Origin: Pseudoxanthomonas sp. SE1
GTDB taxonomy: Bacteria > Pseudomonadota > Gammaproteobacteria > Xanthomonadales > Xanthomonadaceae
Assembly: GCF_029542205.1 (NCBI RefSeq)
Contig: NZ_CP113783.1
Span: forward strand, 2,161,001-2,225,000
DNA: 64,000 nt
Direction of reading: 5' to 3'
Shown here in pieces: positions 42,191-55,119 of this stretch. Each line of letters opens with the position of its first letter. Position 1 is the stretch's first letter. The position numbers and the translations under genes are program-made. The notes under the pieces are model-generated. The model did no database searches, had not been told where the DNA came from, and was given only the letters and a program-made list of their open reading frames with translations.

Positions 42191-42285
42191 GCCGCTTTCC
42201 CCAGATTCCGAACGCCTTAGTCAAACGCGACAAGGTGGAGCTTGACCCTGCACGTAGGTGCGAGGGTCGTCAGAGGAGACGACTT

Positions 42286-42999
42286 ATGGAATTTCGCGGC
42301 ATAACCCGTGAATGCGACCGACTGTGGTCCGAAGGCGCCATGGCGCTGGTCGGTATCAGCCCCTTCAACAGCTATTTCAGTACCGAGCGCATTCAATCAA
42401 TCATCGACTTCTGCGAGGACGGCGGGCGCGCTGTTGCCTTGTTCGTCCCGGACGACGTCACGCGGTTCACCTTGCAAGCCCGCGGCTACACGAAAGACGA
42501 AGCAGTCAGGAAAACCAGCCGGCAAATGCGCTACCTGCGCAACAAGATGAACCAAGCGATGGGTGCCAGGCGCCTTGCGATCCTCGGGTGCGAGTCCTTG
42601 GCGACCAATGCGGCCTACCAAAACCGGCTCGCAGAAGCGCTCGATCGGTTCGAGACTGACGACGTTTTTCGTCGGAGGTGCCTCGACACGACACGTTGGG
42701 TTCTGTCTGCTAAGGATGGTGAGCCGGTTGGCCTCGATGCGGCAATGCTTGGCGTTCAATACCTCCTCGCCGAGCTGCCCCTGTTCTTCCATGCCTCGGA
42801 GATGATCGGATCTGACGTGGTATTCGTGTACCACCAGTGCCCGCTGCTGATCTCGGAAACATATCAGGGCGAACTGGCAGGCAAGGTGTCCCGAGGCCAA
42901 GGATTTGGCGTGCTGCGTCCGCACGAACTTGCAGGTGAGGCGGCCGAGCAGTTGCAGACGCACGCGCTGCAAGTCCCGTGCCCGAACCGTTGCCGCTGA
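42286..42999 (+). CDS. tRNA-dependent cyclodipeptide synthase (NYH type)
   Basis: 237 residues from the ATG at 42286, 8 nt after GAGGAG; AlbC has 239. The fold class uses two aminoacyl-tRNAs to make a cyclic dipeptide. All expected active-site residues are found: the nucleophile Ser25 and Asn28 in GISPFNSYFS, Tyr159 and Glu163 in QYLLAELPLFF, and Tyr182-His183 in FVYHQCP, corresponding to AlbC S37, N40, Y178, E182, Y202 and H203. A basic stretch RKTSRQMRYLRNKMN suits tRNA binding. No oxidase, P450 or methyltransferase partner is near, so the product may be a plain diketopiperazine. Residues setting amino-acid choice were not deduced. Confidence 0.88.
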   Translation: MEFRGITRECDRLWSEGAMALVGISPFNSYFSTERIQSIIDFCEDGGRAVALFVPDDVTRFTLQARGYTKDEAVRKTSRQMRYLRNKMNQAMGARRLAILGCESLATNAAYQNRLAEALDRFETDDVFRRRCLDTTRWVLSAKDGEPVGLDAAMLGVQYLLAELPLFFHASEMIGSDVVFVYHQCPLLISETYQGELAGKVSRGQGFGVLRPHELAGEAAEQLQTHALQVPCPNRCR

Positions 43000-43154: not shown

Positions 43155-43556
43155 TCAATGCAACGCGGCGATCAGCGGGCACGACACTTGGCCGTGATGC
43201 GTATGGCAAGCGACCACCAGTTGGGACAGCGCCTGTTCCATGCGCCGCAGATCCGCCAGGCGCGCGCGCACGTCGGCCAGCCGCAGCGCCGCAAGTTCGG
43301 CCGCCTCGTGGCAGTGGGTGCCGTCGTCCAGCTTGAGCAATTGCGCGACCTCGTCGAGGCTGAAGCCCAACCGCTGGGCCGATTTCACGAACTTGACCCG
43401 CGCCACTTCCGTCGGCCCGTAGCGACGGATGCCGCCGTAGGGCTTCACTGGTTCGAGCAACAGCCCCTTGCGCTGGTAGAACCGGATCGTCTCGACATTG
43501 ACGCCGGCCGCCTTGGCGAAGGCGCCGATGGTCAGGTTTTCCGGAGTGTGATCCAT
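43155..43556 (-). CDS. merR: Mercury-responsive regulator MerR
   Basis: 133 residues. Helix-turn-helix start [24 protein letters not shown] with [17 protein letters not shown], dimerisation helix, and the three Hg-binding cysteines: one in [11 protein letters not shown] (about 82) and two in [16 protein letters not shown] (about 116 and 125), matching Tn501/Tn21 MerR. Binds between the -35 and -10 boxes of mer promoters and activates them when Hg(II) is bound. Divergent from the mer operon. At least four mer-type sites in this transposon could answer to it. Confidence 0.95.
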
Positions 43557-43560
43557 CCGC

Positions 43561-43591
43561 TTGATCCCGTACTTGACTACGGAGGTAGCTT
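43561..43591 (+). promoter_or_regulatory. mer promoter/operator 1
   Basis: -35 TTGATC (43561-43566), 19-bp spacer, -10 TAGCTT (43586-43591). The spacer carries CCGTAC-TTGA-CTACGG, the MerR dyad with one mismatch. The overlong 19-bp spacer is the hallmark of MerR-controlled promoters. Faces the mer operon, 5 bp from merR. Confidence 0.85.
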
Positions 43592-43620: not shown

Positions 43621-44226
43621 ATGCCCATCGCCCCCATTGGTTTCTACTCTGCTGCATTGGTGTGCGCAGCCGTCCCGCAGATCGGCTGTGGGTGCCTCGC
43701 CAAGCCCGTGCTGGCTCAGCTGGAGGATCAACCGGCCATCGCGCGCGCGTGGCTGCACCGTCGCGGCGACCTGATCGCGATCGAGTGGCGATGCGAACTC
43801 GACGTCGATCAGCAGGTCCGCCTGCTGCACGTCGCACTTGGTGGCGGCCGTGAGTTCGCATGCACTCCAGCGGCGGCTGGCGATTTGCTCGCGACCTTTC
43901 CCGACCCGTCGCAGTGGTACCGGTGCGAAACCGTCGATCAGCTCAGCGAGGAAGAGGCGCACACCATTGCCGCCCGGATCGTGCTGCGCCTGTCGCAACG
44001 GGGCGTGCCGCTGCCTGACGGCGCGGCGCTGCAATGCGATCTGGCGTGTGCGCTGCGGGACGTACTCATCGCGGACGAGAACATCCGCATCGAAGCCCGC
44101 CTGGCGCGACTGCTCGCGGCCGCGCGAGACGTGCTGCAACAGCACGTCGGGGTGCCCTGGGAGACCGTCTTGACCCTCGCCACGCTGCTGCCCGCCGATG
44201 CAGCGCCCTGTGAGCATGGCGCTTGA
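43621..44226 (+). CDS. CGxxxKP-family mer-associated protein, copy A
   Basis: 201 residues, not a standard mer gene. The N-terminal part has CAAVPQIGCGCLAKPVLAQL then AWLHRRGDLIAIEW; the spacing (Cys motif, helix, strand with V/A-W, R-x-G turn, strand) looks like a divergent HMA-type ferredoxin fold. The rest is helical with VDQLSEEEAHTIAARIVLRL and ALRDVLIAD. Two relatives with the same motifs lie at 53643-54323 and 54346-55065. No signal peptide, so cytoplasmic. It is the first gene behind the mer promoter, and its stop codon lies inside the -35 box of the next mer promoter. Hg handling is a guess from context. Confidence 0.75.
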   Translation: MPIAPIGFYSAALVCAAVPQIGCGCLAKPVLAQLEDQPAIARAWLHRRGDLIAIEWRCELDVDQQVRLLHVALGGGREFACTPAAAGDLLATFPDPSQWYRCETVDQLSEEEAHTIAARIVLRLSQRGVPLPDGAALQCDLACALRDVLIADENIRIEARLARLLAAARDVLQQHVGVPWETVLTLATLLPADAAPCEHGA

Positions 44227-44253
44227 CTCCGTACCCAAGTACGGCAGTAAGGT
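44223..44253 (+). promoter_or_regulatory. mer promoter/operator 2 (before merT)
   Basis: -35 TTGACT (44223-44228), 19-bp spacer, -10 TAAGGT (44248-44253) around CCGTACCCAAGTACGG, a perfect MerR dyad nearly identical to the Tn501 mer operator. The upstream gene's TGA is part of the -35 box. This probably represents the ancestral PmerTPCAD promoter. Confidence 0.9.
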
Positions 44254-44288
44254 GCAGGCGTCAACCCAGATGGATCCACGGCATCGCG

Positions 44289-44642
44289 ATGAAAAACACC
44301 AATAAAACGGGCGCCACGGCGCTGCTCGCCGGCGGCGTCACGGCGGTTCTGGCCTCGGCGTGCTGCCTCGGCCCCCTGGTGCTGGTGACCTTGGGATTCA
44401 GCGGGGCGTGGCTGGGCAACCTCGCGGCGCTCGAACCCTACCGCCCGCTCTTCATCGGCGCCGCCCTGGTCGCCATGTTCTTCGCCTGGCGCCGTATTTA
44501 CCGGCCGGCCGCGGCGTGCGCGCCGGGCGAAGTCTGCGCGGTACCGCAGGTCAAGGCCGCATACAAGATTCTCTTCTGGATCGTCGCGGTCTTGATTCTG
44601 CTGGCACTGACCTTCCCCTACCTCGCACCGTGGTTCTACTGA
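44289..44642 (+). CDS. merT: Mercuric transport protein MerT
   Basis: 117 residues, three membrane helices. The Hg-binding Cys pair in ASACCLGPLVLVTLG on helix 1 and the second pair in the loop AACAPGEVCAVPQ; ends FPYLAPWFY as in Tn501 MerT. Takes Hg(II) from MerP and carries it into the cytoplasm to MerA. The start at 44289 gives the usual length; an open frame reaching 44223 is the promoter region. Confidence 0.96.
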   Translation: MKNTNKTGATALLAGGVTAVLASACCLGPLVLVTLGFSGAWLGNLAALEPYRPLFIGAALVAMFFAWRRIYRPAAACAPGEVCAVPQVKAAYKILFWIVAVLILLALTFPYLAPWFY

Positions 44643-44663
44643 CACTTCCCGGAGGATCCGCAC

Positions 44664-44942
44664 ATGAAGAAACTCGCCACCGTTCTCGTCCTGGCCCTCG
44701 CGTTCACCGCACCGGCCTGGGCGGCCCTCAAGACCGTAACGCTCACCGTGGACGGCATGTACTGCGCCAGCTGCCCGATCACCGTCAAGCGGGGGCTGAG
44801 CAAGGTCGAAGGCGTGACCAAGATCGAGGTCAACTACGAAGCGAAGGAAGTCGTTGTGACCTTCGATGACGCCAAGACCACGCTCAAGGCGCTCACCGAC
44901 GCGACGGCCAACGCCGGTTATCCGTCCACTGTCAAGAAGTGA
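44664..44942 (+). CDS. merP: Periplasmic mercury-binding protein MerP
   Basis: 92 residues: signal peptide (about 1-20, ending APAWA) and one HMA domain with DGMYCASCPITVKRGL. Binds Hg(II) in the periplasm and hands it to MerT/MerC. 21 bp after merT with a GGAGG site. Confidence 0.96.
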   Translation: MKKLATVLVLALAFTAPAWAALKTVTLTVDGMYCASCPITVKRGLSKVEGVTKIEVNYEAKEVVVTFDDAKTTLKALTDATANAGYPSTVKK

Positions 44943-44949
44943 GCGAGTC

Positions 44950-47330
<2,381 letters not shown>

Positions 47331-47349
47331 CTGCCAGGCACCGATTGAG

Positions 47350-47715
47350 ATGAACGCCTACACGATATCCAGACTGGCTGAAGACGCAGGCGTGAGCGTC
47401 CACGTGGTGCGCGATCACGTGCTCCGCGGTCTGGTGCATCCGGCACGGCGCACGGAAAGCGGATACGGCATTTTCGACGAGCAGTCGCTGGCCCGGCTGC
47501 GGTTCGTTCGGGCCGCTTTCGAGGCGGGAATCGGCTTGGACGTACTGGCACGGCTGTGCCGGGCGCTGGATGCGGCGGACGGCGCGGATGCAGTTGCGCA
47601 ACTCGCCGGGCTGCGTCAGCAACTCGAGCGCCGACGCGAGTCACTGGCCGACCTGGAAGCGCAGTTGGCGGCCATGCCAGCTGAGCCGGCATACCCAGCG
47701 GAAAGCGTGCCGTGA
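47350..47715 (+). CDS. merD: mer operon co-regulator MerD
   Basis: 121 residues, MerR-like helix-turn-helix ([37 protein letters not shown]) but without the MerR cysteine set; C-terminal coiled coil ([19 protein letters not shown]). Binds the mer operator weakly and brings down expression once Hg is gone. Stop codon touches the merE start. Confidence 0.94.
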
Positions 47716-47951
47716 TGAACCGCCTCCAGCGTACATCGTCCCAAGGGCGCCGGCCGATCGCCGGTTACCTGTGGGGCGCGCTGGCCGTGCTGTCCTGCCC
47801 CTGCCATCTACCGATTCTCGCCGTCGTGCTCGCCGGCACTACCGCCGGCGCCTTTCTCGGTGAGTACTGGGGTGTTGCAGCACTTGCGTTGATCGGCTTG
47901 TTCGTCCTTTCAGTGGCGCGGATGCTGCGGGCCTTCGGTCGCCGGACCTGA
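47715..47951 (+). CDS. merE: Mercury transport protein MerE
   Basis: 78 residues, two membrane helices, with SCPCHLPILAVVLAGTTAGA holding the conserved CPC. Very close to Tn21 MerE (GYLWGALAVL, GEYWGVAAL). Small broad-range Hg/methyl-Hg carrier. ATG at 47715 shares a base with the merD stop; a GTG one codon earlier is also possible. Confidence 0.93.
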   Translation: MNRLQRTSSQGRRPIAGYLWGALAVLSCPCHLPILAVVLAGTTAGAFLGEYWGVAALALIGLFVLSVARMLRAFGRRT

Positions 47952-47960
47952 CCGCTTCTC

Positions 47961-48950
47961 ATGACCGATTTCACTCACCAGCCTCTCATCGCTTCCGTGC
48001 TGCAACAGGCTTGGGAGCGCCGGGAGTTCTTGCTCCATTACCAGCCGCAGATTGATCTGCGCACCGGCGCCATCGTAGGTGTTGAAGCGCTGTTGCGATG
48101 GCAGCGCCCGGGATATGGCTTGCGCCTGCCGCAGGACTTCGTGGGCTTGGCCGAATCGACGGGATTGATCGTCGAACTCGGCCAATGGATCTTGCGCGAG
48201 GCCTGTCGTCAGAATCGCGAATGGCAAGGGCAGGGGCTGCCGTGGGTCCGCGTCGCGGTGAATGCCTCAGCCTTGCAGTTGAGTGCGGCATTGGAACAGA
48301 CGGTTCGTCGCACACTTGAAGAAACGGGACTGCCTCCGAAATATCTGGAGCTTGAACTCACCGAGTCGGTCGCGTTTAGCGATCCGCTTGCGATGGCGAT
48401 GCTGGGTGAAATCGCCCGCCTGGGAGTCAGCGTCGGAGTCGACGACTTCGGCACCGGCTACGCTTGCCTGGCGCATCTGCAATGTTGCCCGGTGACTGCG
48501 TTGAAGATCGATCGCCGTTTCGTCGATCGCGTTTCTGACGATCCCAAGAGCCACGCGATCGTGCAGGCCGTCATTGCGTTGGGCCATGCCTTGGATATGC
48601 GGGTCGTTGCCGAAGGTGTTGAGCACGCCGACGACTTGGACGTGCTGCGACTGTTGAACTGCGACGAAGCCCAAGGCTTCCTGTTTGCCCAGGCGATGCC
48701 CGCCAACGCACTGGCCGCACTTCTCGCGCAACGGACCACATTCGCCGTCAGTACACGCGATACCGGTCTCATCAGTTGCAGTGTCTGCTGCCAGGATATT
48801 CCGCTGAGCGCCGCGCTGACACCGGAAGGCGCCGGCTACGTTGAACACTTTTGCGGTCTGGAGTGCTTTCAGCGCTTCGCAATGCGCGACGAGTCCAAAG
48901 CCGTCTCGACGCCGTCATTCCGAGAGGACGCCACCAAGGACCCACCGTGA
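47961..48950 (+). CDS. urf2: Urf2: EAL-domain protein with C-terminal DUF3330
   Basis: 329 residues. The EAL domain (about 10-245) keeps VEALLRW, VNASALQLS, LELTESV, VDDFGTGYACL, KIDRRFV and VVAEGVE, i.e. most catalytic motifs of cyclic-di-GMP phosphodiesterases. A small Cys-rich end with SCSVCCQDIPLSAA and VEHFCGLECFQRF is the DUF3330 unit found in mer-linked Urf2. Routinely follows merE in Tn501/Tn5053-type mer operons; no role in resistance is established. It overlaps the patatin gene by GTGA, extending the operon. Confidence 0.9.
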   Translation: MTDFTHQPLIASVLQQAWERREFLLHYQPQIDLRTGAIVGVEALLRWQRPGYGLRLPQDFVGLAESTGLIVELGQWILREACRQNREWQGQGLPWVRVAVNASALQLSAALEQTVRRTLEETGLPPKYLELELTESVAFSDPLAMAMLGEIARLGVSVGVDDFGTGYACLAHLQCCPVTALKIDRRFVDRVSDDPKSHAIVQAVIALGHALDMRVVAEGVEHADDLDVLRLLNCDEAQGFLFAQAMPANALAALLAQRTTFAVSTRDTGLISCSVCCQDIPLSAALTPEGAGYVEHFCGLECFQRFAMRDESKAVSTPSFREDATKDPP

Positions 48951-49981
48951 ACCCGACCTCGTCCGCGAAGTTCGCCGCACCCCTGGCGCCACGAGACCCC
49001 GCTTCCGCGGCTTTATTCTCGGTACTGACCCTGGATGGCGGCGGTGCGCGCGGCTACCTGACACTCAAGATTCTCGAACAGGTCGAGGCGTACTTGAATG
49101 GGCTGACCGGCGCGGCGCTTCCGCTCGGCGCCCACTTCGACCTTGTCTGCGGCACCTCGACCGGCGGGATCATTGCACTGGCGCTCGCCCTCGGACGGCC
49201 GGTCAGCGAGGTGTCGGCGCTTTACGAGGCGCATCTGCCACGCATCTTCGGGCCGGCCATGCGCCGTTGGGCCGGGGTCGACAATTTTCGCCCTCGCTAC
49301 TGCAGCGATGCGCTGCGCGAGGCCATGCGGGCCCTCTTCGGCGACCTCACCTTGGGCGATGTGCAGACGGATGTCTGTATTACTGCGCTCTCGCTGGCCA
49401 ATGCACGGCCCCAACTGTTCCGGAGCGACTACGCCCATCGGGGCGCATCGCGCATCGACGGACGTCTCGTCGATCTGGCGCTGGCCGCCTCCGCCGCCCC
49501 CACCTTCTTTGCCGCGCATTCGACCGAACATTGGACGGATCTGGTCGATGGGGGCTTGTACGCCAACAACCCCGCGTTGCTCGGCGTGGTGGAGTCCTTC
49601 CGCTTCTCGCGCAAGAGTCGCCGTGGCGTGGCGCCACCTTACGACCTCGGCACCACCTGCCTGGAGCAGCTGGCCGTGCTGTCGGTGGGCACGGGCGAAC
49701 AATGCGCCATGCCTTTCGACCCCGATCGCCTGCGCACCGGCGGTCAGCTGGCTTGGGGACGGCACTTTCACAGCGTCTCCAGCGAAAGCCAATCACAGTA
49801 CGTCAACCTGCTGGCCGAAGGCCTGCTCGGTGCGGCGTATCACCGCATCAATCCACGCCTGGATTTTCCGATGGGCATGGATGAATTGCGCCGCCTGCCG
49901 GCGCTCAAGAACCTAGCCGACCTGGCCGAACACGACGAGGCGTTTCTGCGTACCCGCATCGCCGCGACCGTTGACGCGTGA
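48947..49981 (+). CDS. Patatin-like phospholipase
   Basis: 344 residues from a GTG overlapping the urf2 stop. The patatin signature is complete: oxyanion loop DGGGARGYL (about residues 27-35), the nucleophile in CGTSTGG, and DGGLYANNP with the dyad Asp. About the length and plan of CapV-type effector phospholipases of CBASS and of CBASS-free patatin defence proteins, but no cGAS/DncV-like cyclase is near. Expected to hydrolyse membrane phospholipids. It is fused to the end of a mer operon by translational coupling, so mercury may induce it. Confidence 0.85.
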   Translation: MNPTSSAKFAAPLAPRDPASAALFSVLTLDGGGARGYLTLKILEQVEAYLNGLTGAALPLGAHFDLVCGTSTGGIIALALALGRPVSEVSALYEAHLPRIFGPAMRRWAGVDNFRPRYCSDALREAMRALFGDLTLGDVQTDVCITALSLANARPQLFRSDYAHRGASRIDGRLVDLALAASAAPTFFAAHSTEHWTDLVDGGLYANNPALLGVVESFRFSRKSRRGVAPPYDLGTTCLEQLAVLSVGTGEQCAMPFDPDRLRTGGQLAWGRHFHSVSSESQSQYVNLLAEGLLGAAYHRINPRLDFPMGMDELRRLPALKNLADLAEHDEAFLRTRIAATVDA

Positions 49982-50081
49982 AGCATCGGAGCGGCCAAGC
50001 GCAGAGCCCTGCCGACCCGCGTGACAGCGCGACCAAGGCGCGAGGGGCGGCTCAACACCGATGACAAGGGAGATCCAAACT

Positions 50082-50966
50082 ATGGCTACCGCTACTGACA
50101 AACTCGACGACTCGATTTTCAATGGCTTTCGAGCGGGTCGAACGTTCATAGACTTCTGGCTACCGCGCATTTTGGCGCTTGGGGCGAGTGTGATCGGGCC
50201 TCTTCCCCTGGTCCTCGACCTGAAGTGGAGCGTGTCGATGTCGATCATCGGACCTATCTTCTGGCTGGCTTCGATCCTGCTCACCGTCGCCTCGGTCGCG
50301 TTGGCCAGACGGGCCGGTGACAAGCGCTTCGTCTGGCTGGTCATCGTGGCCTTCCTAGCGGGTTACATGGCAACCGCTACGTACGACTCCAGCAGGGTGG
50401 CGGGGATCAGTGCCGGAGTTGTCGCGATGGACGAAGCGCTCGACTTTGGGCGGCGCCTCAGAGGGCAAGTCGCGCCGGGGGGGCATGGGTCCATGCATGC
50501 CGACGAACACGAAGTCGGTCCCGAGCGCGAACAAGCGCCGCCTGCTCCGAGCCCGGCTGATGCACACGGCTCGGCAGCCTCGTCTGAGGAACATCAGCCA
50601 GAGGCGGAACACGCCGCAGAGCATGAGCCGGTTTCCTCTCTCAGCTCAGGGGCCACCGTCGCTCTGGGTTACGCTTGGCATTATTGGAGCGGGATCATGT
50701 TCAGCCTGTCGTTCCTCGTGCTGTTTGGCGCACGGGGATGGAAATGGGCGATACCCTACCTGGTGCTGGTGATCTATCCGGGCATGGTCTTCGCAATGGG
50801 GAGCCACACCATTGCGAATTTCATCTGGGAGGCCGTCGGACACGCGGGCTTCGGTCTAACCTTAGGCATTGCCAGCAGCGCGCTGCTGGCGTCTGACGCT
50901 GGGCAACGCTCTGGCTCACGTCCAGGCGTGGAAGTTCCAACGGACGCTTCGAGAAAGGAACAATAG
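50082..50966 (+). CDS. Polytopic membrane protein of unknown function
   Basis: 294 residues from the ATG at 50082 (GGGAG 8 nt before; ATG 50061 is weaker). Predicted helices at about 26-48, 53-78, 84-105, 205-222, 227-247 and 250-270, broken by a soluble loop (about 110-195) rich in His, Glu, Pro and Ala (HGSMHADEHE, EEHQPEAEHAAEHE). I do not recognise a family. The His/acidic loop could bind metals. It follows the patatin gene by 100 bp and may be its membrane partner. Confidence 0.65.
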   Translation: MATATDKLDDSIFNGFRAGRTFIDFWLPRILALGASVIGPLPLVLDLKWSVSMSIIGPIFWLASILLTVASVALARRAGDKRFVWLVIVAFLAGYMATATYDSSRVAGISAGVVAMDEALDFGRRLRGQVAPGGHGSMHADEHEVGPEREQAPPAPSPADAHGSAASSEEHQPEAEHAAEHEPVSSLSSGATVALGYAWHYWSGIMFSLSFLVLFGARGWKWAIPYLVLVIYPGMVFAMGSHTIANFIWEAVGHAGFGLTLGIASSALLASDAGQRSGSRPGVEVPTDASRKEQ

Positions 50967-51135
50967 ATAAGAAGATTGTTTCATCGCCGCATGTGCGGTG
51001 ACTAGCCTCGTGTAGACGACGAACAACTTTGCCGAGGAGATCTTGTTCCAAGTGCCGTGGCAGTGTCCGGCGGCTTGGGCGATCCATAATGGAAAGCGTC
51101 GGACTGGCCCTTGCAACTCTGCTCGGGAGATTCCA

Positions 51136-51785
<650 letters not shown>

Positions 51786-51792
51786 TAAGGTG

Positions 51793-51906
51793 GTGACGTG
51801 CCGTGCAGAGTCAGGCGCAATTGTTGATGAGCGGCGGCAGGGATTGCTGGGGTTGGAGGCACAATTGAGCGCGCTGCGGGCAGAGGTTGGTCGACACGGA
51901 AAGGCA
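51793..51906 (+). pseudogene. merD 3' remnant
   Basis: A short in-frame piece gives ERRQGLLGLEAQLSALRAEV, matching the MerD coiled-coil end ([16 protein letters not shown] in the intact copy at 47350). The DNA-binding part is missing. Its place before a merE-like gene repeats the order A-D-E of the intact operon. Confidence 0.55.
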
Positions 51907-51910
51907 GGCG

Positions 51911-52129
51911 ATGAACGGTCACGAGCGCAGATCCGTCACGGGTTACTCGTGGGCCGCGATGGCTGTGCTGAAGTGCCCGTGTCACCTCCCGCTCCTGGCC
52001 CCGCACTCGGCGGGTAAGGCGGCCGGCGCCGTTTTCAGGGCGCACTGGGTCATCGCGGCACTGGGATTGATCAGGTTGTTCGGGCTATCCGTGTGGCGGG
52101 CGACGCGTACGTTTGGAGGACGCGCATGA
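51911..52129 (+). CDS. Divergent MerE-like protein
   Basis: 72 residues: VTGYSWAAMAVLKCPCHLPL with the CPC-H-L-P core of MerE, then a second hydrophobic helix (WVIAALGLIRLFGLSVW). It is well diverged from the intact merE at 47715, notably in the middle (HSAGKAAGAVFRAH instead of AGTTAGAFLGEY). The frame is intact and its stop overlaps the next ATG, so it may still be made. It belongs to the remnants of a second mer operon. Confidence 0.65.
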   Translation: MNGHERRSVTGYSWAAMAVLKCPCHLPLLAPHSAGKAAGAVFRAHWVIAALGLIRLFGLSVWRATRTFGGRA

Positions 52130-52593
52130 GCGGTTTGATGCCCGGTCAGCTTGAATTCGTCGACGGCCGATCGACGCATCCGCACGCCCTTGAGCGCCAA
52201 CTGGAAACCATCGCCATGAATTCGCGCGAATTGAACTCACCGGAGGCCATTGCCGACTGCGTGGACGCGTTTTACGCAAAAGTAATCATTGATGCCGCGC
52301 TTGGTCCGATCTTCAAAGAAGTTGACCTGCAGCAACATAAACCAACGATTCGCGCGTATTGGCGCAAGATGCTGCTCGGCGAGCATGAGGGCTATCGGCG
52401 CAACATGATTGCCCAGCACATTGCACTGCACACGCGCCATTCCTTGCAACACCATCATTTTCAGCGGTGGTTGGAACTATTTGTGGAGACCGTGGATGAG
52501 CAATTCTGCGGGCACGCCGCCGTCCGGGCCAAGCGCCTTGCGACCACGATCGCTATCAACCTCGAAGCGCTGCTCGATGTCCGTCGGATGTAA
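52126..52593 (+). CDS. Group III truncated haemoglobin
   Basis: 155 residues from the ATG at 52126, preceded by GGAGGA and overlapping the merE-like stop. The globin region (about 40-150) has FYAKVIIDAALGPIFKEV, RAYWRKMLLGEHEGYRRN, HIALHTRHSLQHHHFQRWL and ELFVETVDEQFCG, the pattern of trHb3/Ctb proteins (proximal His before the F-x-x-W). The first about 35 residues are an unusual extension. Such globins bind O2/NO and are tied to redox and nitrosative stress. Coupling to a merE gene is notable. Function here is unknown. Confidence 0.8.
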   Translation: MSGLMPGQLEFVDGRSTHPHALERQLETIAMNSRELNSPEAIADCVDAFYAKVIIDAALGPIFKEVDLQQHKPTIRAYWRKMLLGEHEGYRRNMIAQHIALHTRHSLQHHHFQRWLELFVETVDEQFCGHAAVRAKRLATTIAINLEALLDVRRM

Positions 52594-52606
52594 TGGAGCA
52601 TGGCAT

Positions 52607-52810
52607 GCAGCCGCCACAGCTATGCGACCGGATCCTGATCGGCGCCGGTACCGGTGCCGGCGTTAGGGCGTCGCCGGCATGGCTGCGGCGGCAGGCTGCA
52701 AGGTCGCCGTGATCGATAGCTTGCGTTATGGCGACACGTGCGCCTTGCGCGGGTGCGACGCCAAAACAATGCTCCTCGAAGTGACGTCGAGTGTCGACCG
52801 GGCCCGCAAC
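52607..52810 (+). pseudogene. 5' remnant of a FAD-dependent disulfide reductase
   Basis: Starts LCDRILIGAGTGAGVRAS in one frame and continues as AAGCKVAVIDSLRYGDTCALRGCDAKTMLLEV in the next, seen as the FAD-binding start and the CALRGC redox pair of a NAD(P)-disulfide oxidoreductase family. The match stops near 52810, where a reversed integrase piece begins. One frameshift and loss of the C-terminal three quarters make it non-functional. Confidence 0.65.
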
Positions 52811-53085
52811 GTGAACGCGCGCTCGCCAAACCGACACAGATCGCTCATGTCCGCGGCGGCCAATTCACCGCGTCGGTGCCCGCCGCTGGCGAACGCGGAC
52901 AGCAGCAGCGCGCGCTCGTGCACCCCGGTAAGCGTGGCATCGCAGGTGGCGAGCAGTGCGGCCAGTTCGGGCTGGGTGATCGCGGTCCTCCTAGTGGACC
53001 GGTCGCCGCGTCTGACCACGGCGCGACGGGCGCGGGCCAGCGCCGACGCCGCCTTCGCGAGAGCGCGCGGCTCGCTTGAGCTTGA
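52810..53085 (-). pseudogene. Fragment of a TnpS-like tyrosine recombinase
   Basis: Minus-strand open stretch giving ALAKAASALARARRAVVRRG, TAITQPELAALLATCDATL, GVHERALLLSAFASGGHRRGE and LAAADMSDLCRFG. It lines up with TnpS (EPLQAMLDTC, VRDRALLLLAWSGGGRRRSE, VELQVGDLRRL). Both the N-terminal domain and the HxxR-Y catalytic end are missing. The following 53090-53302 contains no gene that I can support. Confidence 0.65.
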
Positions 53086-53302
53086 AGTGCAGCCGCTACC
53101 TGGCCCGGCTGAACAGAGCTCGCTTCCCAGGCGATGAGGTAGATGCCCGCTTCGCCGGACGGATCGCTACCGCGGCTGCGGGGACAGCGGCGACTGGCAA
53201 ATGCCCCGGCGCGGCTTGGCCGTTTTCAGCCGAACTGGGGTGCCAACGACACACTCAACGGATCGAGCGCGAGCGTTAGCACCACTTGTCAACAGGGAAA
53301 GG

Positions 53303-53578
53303 TTACTTGACGCGCGACGGGTAACCCGCATCCGCGGTGGCTTTGATGAGCGCTGAAACCGTAGTCTTGGCATCGTCGAACGACACTTGGACTTCCTTGG
53401 CTTCTACGCGAAAGTCGATCTTTTGTACGCCGGCAATCCGGTTTAGAACCTTCTTGATCGTGACGGGGCACGTTGAGCACGTCATGTCATCAACGACCAA
53501 GGTCGTGGTCCGGGTGGCAGCCCAACCCGGCGAGGAGAGAGCGAGAGTCATTGACAGCACGGCAACGTACTTTTTCAT
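53303..53578 (-). CDS. merP: Second periplasmic mercury-binding protein MerP
   Basis: 91 residues: signal peptide (about 1-20, SSPGWA) and an HMA domain with DDMTCSTCPVTIKKVL. About the same length as the MerP at 44664 but clearly diverged (DDM for DGM). Last gene of a minus-strand unit that starts at the mer-type promoter 54407-54437; CGxxxKP protein B is directly before it. No merT accompanies it. Confidence 0.92.
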   Translation of the reverse strand: MKKYVAVLSMTLALSSPGWAATRTTTLVVDDMTCSTCPVTIKKVLNRIAGVQKIDFRVEAKEVQVSFDDAKTTVSALIKATADAGYPSRVK

Positions 53579-53642
53579 GGGGACGATCCTCAGGGACGTG
53601 TGAGCAGTCGAGCAGAAGGTTCAAGCGGCGTCGGAATCAGGA

Positions 53643-54323
53643 CTACTCTTCACCTTTGAGCGGTCGGGTGCCAAGTTTGAGTGCATCCGCGAACGCACGC
53701 AGTTCATTCTCATCGAGCAAGGGGCTGACGGCGCCGATCAATCGCTCACTGCGAGTGCCAACAGATTGCCCAACGAGGTCCTGGCGAAGTTGCGGCTCGA
53801 TCGCATCCACTACAGTGGCGGCCTTCGACGCGGCGGAAGGGGCGTGGGCAACCAGACGTCGCGTGAGGCGCTGGGCGATAAAGCGCGCCTCATCGTTGCT
53901 GAGTTCGTCGGCCGTCATTTTATTGTACCAACCGTCGCGTGTCTGGAAACTCTCCTGAAGCGCACGGGCGCGCGAACCACCAAGCCGCCGGAATCGCAGG
54001 TCATGAATCGAGGCAACTTCCTCAACCGCGGCGTCGCGCTGCACACTATCGCTGCCGCTCTTCCAGACCGCGGCCACGATGGTCCCTGTGCGATCAACCC
54101 ATGCCTCCGCTACCGAAGGCTGGTTCTCGAGCGCTCTCAGAACGGGCTTCACCTTCCCGCCGCAAGCGATCTGTGGCGCCGACGGGCACCGCAGGGGTAC
54201 TTCATAGAACGCGTTTGCGGCAGCCCTTGGCATCTCGCCTGCCATCGCGGTTGAAGCGCTGCCGAGCGCACTCAGCGCCATGCTGACGCACGCGGCCTGA
54301 AGCGTGGATCGGAACATCATCAT
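53643..54323 (-). CDS. CGxxxKP-family protein, exported copy B
   Basis: 226 residues from the first of three tandem ATG codons. Unlike copies A and C it has a signal peptide (about 1-28, ASTAMAGE). The family motif is CPSAPQIACGGKVKPVLRAL then AWVDRTGTIVAAVW, with the later TADELSNDEARFIAQRLTR matching the LSEEEA region of A and C. Ends acidic (LKGEE). It follows a perfect mer-type promoter and is followed by merP, so it is probably a periplasmic partner for Hg. No known function. Confidence 0.72.
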   Translation of the reverse strand: MMMFRSTLQAACVSMALSALGSASTAMAGEMPRAAANAFYEVPLRCPSAPQIACGGKVKPVLRALENQPSVAEAWVDRTGTIVAAVWKSGSDSVQRDAAVEEVASIHDLRFRRLGGSRARALQESFQTRDGWYNKMTADELSNDEARFIAQRLTRRLVAHAPSAASKAATVVDAIEPQLRQDLVGQSVGTRSERLIGAVSPLLDENELRAFADALKLGTRPLKGEE

Positions 54324-54345
54324 TGTTGGGTGCCTCGAATGGGAT

Positions 54346-55065
54346 TTAGATGTGGAAAGCTGCTGGTCGACGCCCCAACGCCATTCGGAATACGGGGTCG
54401 AACGCCTTTGTAACCCCGTACCCGAGTACGGAGTCAATCCCGCCGAGAAAGCCGGGCTCTGCTTGTCCCACGTTCGTGGGCAACAGCGCGATAGTACTCA
54501 GGAAGGGTTCGCACATTCGGAAGCTGGGTGCATCGAGATGTTTGCGAAGTACGCCCCGTGCGGATTCGAGCAAGCGCTGCAGTCGGACGCCGAGAGGAAT
54601 ATCGTCTTGTGTAACGAGCACATCCCGGAGGACTGCCTCAAGGTCCGAGCGGAGGGCGGCTCCATCAGGCGTCGGGATACGCGCGTCGACCAAGTGCTCG
54701 ACCAGCCGCGAGGCGAGCACGCCCGCCTCTTCCTCGCTCAATCGGTCCACTGTGCAGCGGCTGTACCACTGCCCGGAATCCCCGAGTGTTCCCAGCAGAG
54801 CCGACGTGGCTTCGGGGGGCATCCCCGTGGCTGTGCCGTCGCCAAGTGCTTGCGCAACCGGAGCCAGTTGCTGACCAAGCGGGACCGGCTGGCGCCACTG
54901 CACGGCGATCAAGCCACCCGTGCGGTGTATCCATGTGGTGTCGACATCCGGGTCGTCCTCCAAGCGCTGGAGCAACGGCTTGGAAAGGCAACCGCAAGCG
55001 ATCTCCGGTACGGCCGCGCAAGTCAGAGGAACCCGATACAAGCCAATCCAAGCGGTCACGTCCAC
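54346..55065 (-). CDS. CGxxxKP-family protein, copy C
   Basis: 239 residues from a GTG (an in-frame GTG at 55059 is also possible). Motifs: TCAAVPEIACGCLSKPLL, TWIHRTGGLIAVQW, VDRLSEEEAGVLASRLV and AVLRDVLVTQDDI, close to copy A. No signal peptide. The last ~35 codons pass through the mer promoter of copy B and read GIDSVLGYGVTKAF, so this tail is probably a late extension. Expressed from its own mer-type promoter at 55089-55119. Confidence 0.7.
   Translation of the reverse strand: MDVTAWIGLYRVPLTCAAVPEIACGCLSKPLLQRLEDDPDVDTTWIHRTGGLIAVQWRQPVPLGQQLAPVAQALGDGTATGMPPEATSALLGTLGDSGQWYSRCTVDRLSEEEAGVLASRLVEHLVDARIPTPDGAALRSDLEAVLRDVLVTQDDIPLGVRLQRLLESARGVLRKHLDAPSFRMCEPFLSTIALLPTNVGQAEPGFLGGIDSVLGYGVTKAFDPVFRMALGRRPAAFHI
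54407..54437 (-). promoter_or_regulatory. mer promoter/operator 3 (before copy B and merP)
   Basis: On the minus strand -35 TTGACT (54437-54432), 19-bp spacer, -10 TACAAA (54412-54407) around the perfect dyad CCGTACTCGGGTACGG. It lies inside the end of the copy C gene and faces copy B. Confidence 0.85.
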
Positions 55066-55088: not shown

Positions 55089-55119
55089 ATGCTAGTACCG
55101 TATGCGCATACGGAGTCAA
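55089..55119 (-). promoter_or_regulatory. mer promoter/operator 4 (before copy C)
   Basis: On the minus strand -35 TTGACT (55119-55114), 19-bp spacer, -10 TAGCAT (55094-55089) around the perfect dyad CCGTATGCGCATACGG. The core differs (CCGTAT for CCGTAC), so strength or the regulator may differ. It lies 24 bp before the copy C start. Confidence 0.8.

Follow-up and report, generated by a model that had tools for sequence, protein, structure and literature searches.

The stretch of Pseudoxanthomonas sp. SE1 DNA analyzed here (contig NZ_CP113783.1, positions 2,161,001 to 2,225,000, called the window below and numbered from its first base over 64,000 nucleotides) carries three genes, designated A, B, and C, that stand among mercury resistance (mer) genes and encode related proteins with a conserved CGxxxKP motif:

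43621-44226, plus strand: copy A, 201 residues, no export signal, C-x7-C-G-C
53643-54323, minus strand: copy B, 226 residues, signal-peptide-like N-terminal leader, C-x7-C-G-G
54346-55065, minus strand: copy C, 239 residues, GTG start, no export signal, C-x7-C-G-C

The coordinates and motifs given for these genes in a preliminary description of the DNA proved correct. Each protein contains a motif in the CGxxxKP region (IGCGCLAKP in A, IACGGKVKP in B, and IACGCLSKP in C), a tryptophan motif (AWLHRRG, AWVDRTG, and TWIHRTG, respectively), and an LSxxEA-type motif (LSEEEA in A and C, LSNDEA in B). That description had seen a single CGC or CGG, which turned out to be wrong: two cysteines, arranged as C-x7-C-G, are invariant in all 101 aligned rows of the family, and the lysine of CGxxxK is present in 100 of them. 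Pairwise BLASTP comparisons (A/C, 46% identity, E value of 2e-56; A/B, 32%, 2e-22; B/C, 34%, 5e-23) confirm the homology of the three proposed paralogues. In a phylogenetic tree of 134 rows (for which long-branch warnings were issued, P0030 among them), B does not group closely with A and C. In this tree, members carrying CGC form one clade (support of 99/95) with one CGY row inside, while B pairs with P0035 (100/100) outside that clade, its placement relative to the CGC clade being weak (70/66). Ratios of nonsynonymous to synonymous substitution rates (dN/dS) lay between 0.19 and 0.33 for A compared to C and to copies in the same and two other genomes.

None of the three proteins reached a curated Pfam or NCBIfam family or a solved structure related by sequence, and a literature search found no description of the family, in agreement with the earlier proposal that it is undescribed. 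A search with A alone returned 29 proteins, A included, and profile searches returned at least 99 proteins with a first profile and at least 518 clusters with a later one, the candidates scored being those sharing the most words (the best 8000 and the best 7998, respectively). Judged by these matches, the family extends far beyond A, B, and C and has relatives in at least five phyla (Bacteroidota, Verrucomicrobiota, Acidobacteriota, Pseudomonadota, and Ignavibacteriota). Among the matches listed (120 of 518), source names were "hypothetical" or "uncharacterized" except for one "FliL" (P0183), and Pfam annotation covered only other, fused parts of the proteins. The C-x7-C-G motif occurs in 209 of the 211 family proteins collected, the remaining two being 110-residue pieces, and the alignment shows that, apart from the cysteines, W, D, S, and E residues of the C-terminal domain are strictly conserved. 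Some members carry additional parts: in P0095, the family domain is fused behind DUF6624 (PF20329), and P0076, P0078, P0083, P0088, and P0096 have a C-terminal GDCCVxC domain (NF041374), for which the NCBIfam description mentions selenoproteins and our literature search found no paper.

The proposed HMA-like ferredoxin fold at the N terminus was seen in a confident structural model of A (predicted local distance difference test score of 90.5), in which an N-terminal domain with the beta-alpha-beta-beta-alpha-beta order of HMA and MerP proteins is followed by a helical C-terminal domain. At the sequence level, A, B, and C gave no match to PF00403 or TIGR02052 at E values up to 10, and the family showed no reliable profile similarity to HMA (hhalign probability of 4.6%); because these tests failed, the family was not filed as MerP. 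The predicted N-terminal fold, the cysteines in the loop leading to the first helix, the linkage to mer genes, and frequent export are shared with HMA metallochaperone domains (PF00403) such as that of MerP, but the family carries C-x7-C-G instead of CxxC and an extra helical domain. One member, P0056, reaches the cut-off of the MerTP fusion model NF033556 (181 versus 180 bits); the model matches residues 14 to 165 of 380, and the family domain is an additional C-terminal part outside it. On plasmid pMR68 of Pseudomonas sp. K-62, the gene adjoining merT2-merP2 encodes a member of the same family that shares 34% identity with B across 99% of the length of B; the dN/dS between the two genes was saturated. 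The available text of the pMR68 report describes this cluster 2 as merT2-merP2 and makes no mention of the adjoining gene (PMC3737084). The family is rated as consisting of mer-linked, HMA-like proteins with a motif and a second domain of their own.

In the window, A lies between a divergent merR and a merT-merP-merC-merA-merD-merE series (44289-47951), and B precedes a merP, as had been noted. The mer genes and mer-type operators are as follows:

43155-43556, minus strand: merR, divergent from A, above the TIGR02051 cut-off
43561-43582, plus strand: operator before A, exact pattern match
44223-44244, plus strand: operator before merT, exact pattern match, with the stop codon of A in its -35 element
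44289-44642, plus strand: merT, above the NF010314 cut-off
44664-44942, plus strand: merP, above the TIGR02052 cut-off
44950-45381, plus strand: merC, NCBIfam cut-off passed
45603-47330, plus strand: merA, above the TIGR02053 cut-off
47350-47715, plus strand: merD, NCBIfam cut-off passed
47712-47951, plus strand: merE, NCBIfam cut-off passed
53303-53578, minus strand: second merP, downstream of B, above the TIGR02052 cut-off
54416-54437, minus strand: operator before B, exact pattern match
55098-55119, minus strand: operator before C, exact pattern match

The preliminary description had assigned each gene a mer-type promoter of its own, and an exact operator indeed lies directly upstream of A, B, and C. 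The pattern TTGAYYCCGTAN6TACGG, scanned over the 64-kb window, matched exactly the four sites listed, compared to none expected (0 in 100 shuffles). Each -35 element is followed by a 19-base spacer and then TAAGGT (merT), TACAAA (B), TAGCAT (C), or, by inspection, TAGCTT (A), and the 3′ end of C runs through the operator of B. Since mer-type operators occur together with a MerR protein above its cut-off, expression of A, B, and C would be expected to be induced by Hg(II).

The linkage to mercury genes extends far beyond this genome. We examined 43 loci found by two peptide patterns derived from exported-type members, a sample in which other types are under-represented. MerT was present in 32 loci, in 27 of them within 2 kb and on the same strand; MerT or MerA was found in 34, and a MerR- or ArsR-type gene in 30, with an ArsR-family gene within 2.5 kb in 19. 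In Bacteroidota, a frequent order was ArsR, MerT(P), and the family gene. Three loci had a regulator only (L035, L039, and L043), and no mer gene was detected in five (L041, L049, L050, L053, and L060), three of which are on contigs shorter than 7 kb. The family domain is also fused behind MerT in 10 of the 211 proteins, 4 of which have an HMA domain in between; five of the ten score above the Pfam MerT cut-off. All four matched plasmid records place a relative beside mer genes: two from Rhodanobacter have it within a mer operon, pMR68 has it adjacent to merT2-merP2, and a Fibrella plasmid has it adjacent to arsR-merTP. Between the family gene and merT, the Rhodanobacter plasmids (L003, 4710-7040; L004, 6700-9030) hold a set of (2Fe-2S), DUF2282, DUF692, and DNA-binding-domain genes; DUF692/DUF2282 sets resemble metal-buffering peptide operons. 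In samples with at most 8 candidates per genome aligned, so that counts are lower bounds, the family occurred in at least 4 of 398 genomes of the same taxonomic order (the present one included), all 4 having MerT compared to 81 of 398 overall, and in at least 1 of 398 genomes of the phylum sample (the present one). In the same order, at G525:C1:3468979-3469576, a family gene that lies next to merT is split over two reading frames.

Export separates the family along the CGC motif. An N-terminal hydrophobic segment, contributed by a leader or by MerT, was found in 101 of 114 non-CGC rows versus 0 of 31 CGC rows, counted at a threshold of 1.6 over 145 motif-bearing rows that include near-duplicates and exclude P0029 and P0031; rows from loci are stop-to-stop frames, and the value for P0005, which is truncated, is meaningless. 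The earlier assignment of A and C as unexported holds, as neither has a hydrophobic N terminus. B, to which a signal peptide had been assigned, has a leader that resembles one and looks exported, but its hydrophobicity of 1.44 falls just under the threshold and puts it in the class without a segment. A and C thus belong to one lineage characterized by a third cysteine and no export signal. Because the CGC members form a single clade, the association with loss of export represents one evolutionary event rather than many. The C terminus of MerT is periplasmic, which would place the domain fused to it outside.

Overall, the initial observation is confirmed and the main claims of its interpretation are supported. 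We consider it somewhat probable that the widespread family of two-domain proteins to which A, B, and C belong binds Hg(II) and cooperates with the importer MerT in its trafficking. About 85 residues at the N terminus would form an HMA metallochaperone-like domain, with C-x7-C-G-(S/C/G)-x-x-K-P replacing CxxC in the loop that connects strand 1 to helix 1, and the invariant cysteine pair would provide the Hg(II) ligands. For the helical C-terminal domain, with its conserved W...D-x-L-S-x-E-E-A stretch, a docking role is proposed, with MerT or some other protein as the partner. The majority of members, B among them, seem to be exported or are joined to MerT and would act outside, beside MerP, and members of the A and C clade might receive Hg(II) at the inner face and either pass it to MerA or retain it.

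Other functions were weighed against surveys of MerA, MerT, and MerB in sets of 22 (MerA), 28 (MerB), and 31 genomes, all selected among the genomes in which the 43 loci lie. Among 22 genomes, 7 had MerA above the cut-off, 20 had a MerT match, and 13 had MerT without such a MerA, the MerT of one of these 13 being below the curated cut-off. These 13 genomes would fit a protein that acts as a mercury sponge, sequestering Hg(II) at or behind MerT and protecting the cell even without mercuric reductase, as would the extra C-terminal cysteines or GDCCVxC domain of several Bacteroidota members. However, most of the 22 genomes are metagenome-assembled and may be missing genes, MerA-like enzymes score just under the cut-off, two cysteines per protein offer little for storage, and the CGC members here and in Rhodanobacter stand with merA, so that we regard sequestration as unlikely. 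In a related and equally doubtful scheme, MerT(P) and the family protein would by themselves constitute a mercury system that works without a reductase and that, in Bacteroidota, is common and controlled by ArsR, with the protein as the end acceptor of Hg(II) and the unexported CGC clade as a later adaptation coupling it to MerA.

The five loci without detected mer genes and the 19 with a nearby ArsR-family gene could instead mean that the protein regulates or handles another thiophilic metal and that its mercury linkage is secondary. This seems improbable, given that an apparent export signal or a fusion to MerT is seen in most members, that A, B, and C matched no DNA-binding family in Pfam and NCBIfam scans, and that the operators in the window are of the mer type. 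The strictly conserved W, D, S, and E of the C-terminal domain, in addition to the cysteines, would also suit an enzyme acting on mercurials, e.g., a new organomercurial lyase. A, B, and C, however, matched neither MerB (PF03243) nor any enzyme family in the same scans, and most members look exported. Nor is there a link to a lyase, MerB being found in 2 of 28 genomes and not in the other 26, and MerA, which would be needed for the product, passed the cut-off in only the 7 genomes mentioned above; we hold catalysis to be very improbable.

Textbooks present the mer operon as a detoxification system with few accepted genes. At least 518 unnamed clusters that recurrently adjoin or are fused to MerT would represent an overlooked mer component, which makes the passage of Hg(II) on either side of MerT, as well as the role of MerT without MerA, testable. 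In its available part, a 2012 survey lists arsR, merR, merP, merT, merC, merF, merE, merG, merH, merB, merD, and TRASH genes near merA (PMC3466566), and the accessible portions of this and another mer gene survey (PMC8261052) name no gene of this kind. A hypothetical protein encoded downstream of merA is reported for Gelidibacter (PMC10587081).

Seven strong family matches, corresponding to four distinct sequences, were found in the whole genome. A, B, and C are each present twice because window positions 35893-56574 have an inverted copy of 20,682 bp at about 2028361-2049042 of the genome (99.995% identical), and both mer clusters are consequently carried twice. The fourth member, at 378120, is 72% identical to A and lies beside merR, merT, merP, and merC. 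In the window, a cyclodipeptide synthase gene (42283-42999, plus strand; PF16715, E value of 3e-47) adjoins the mer cluster on one side, and a gene for an EAL domain protein with DUF3330 (47961-48950, plus strand) stands behind merE. It is followed by a patatin-like phospholipase gene (48926-49981, plus strand; PF01734) matched by PADLOC phospholipase effector models (best E value of 1.6e-68). Further downstream, at 51136-52129 on the plus strand, a second MerE (above the cut-off) and an N-terminal fragment of a pyridine nucleotide-disulphide oxidoreductase are apparently what is left of another cluster.
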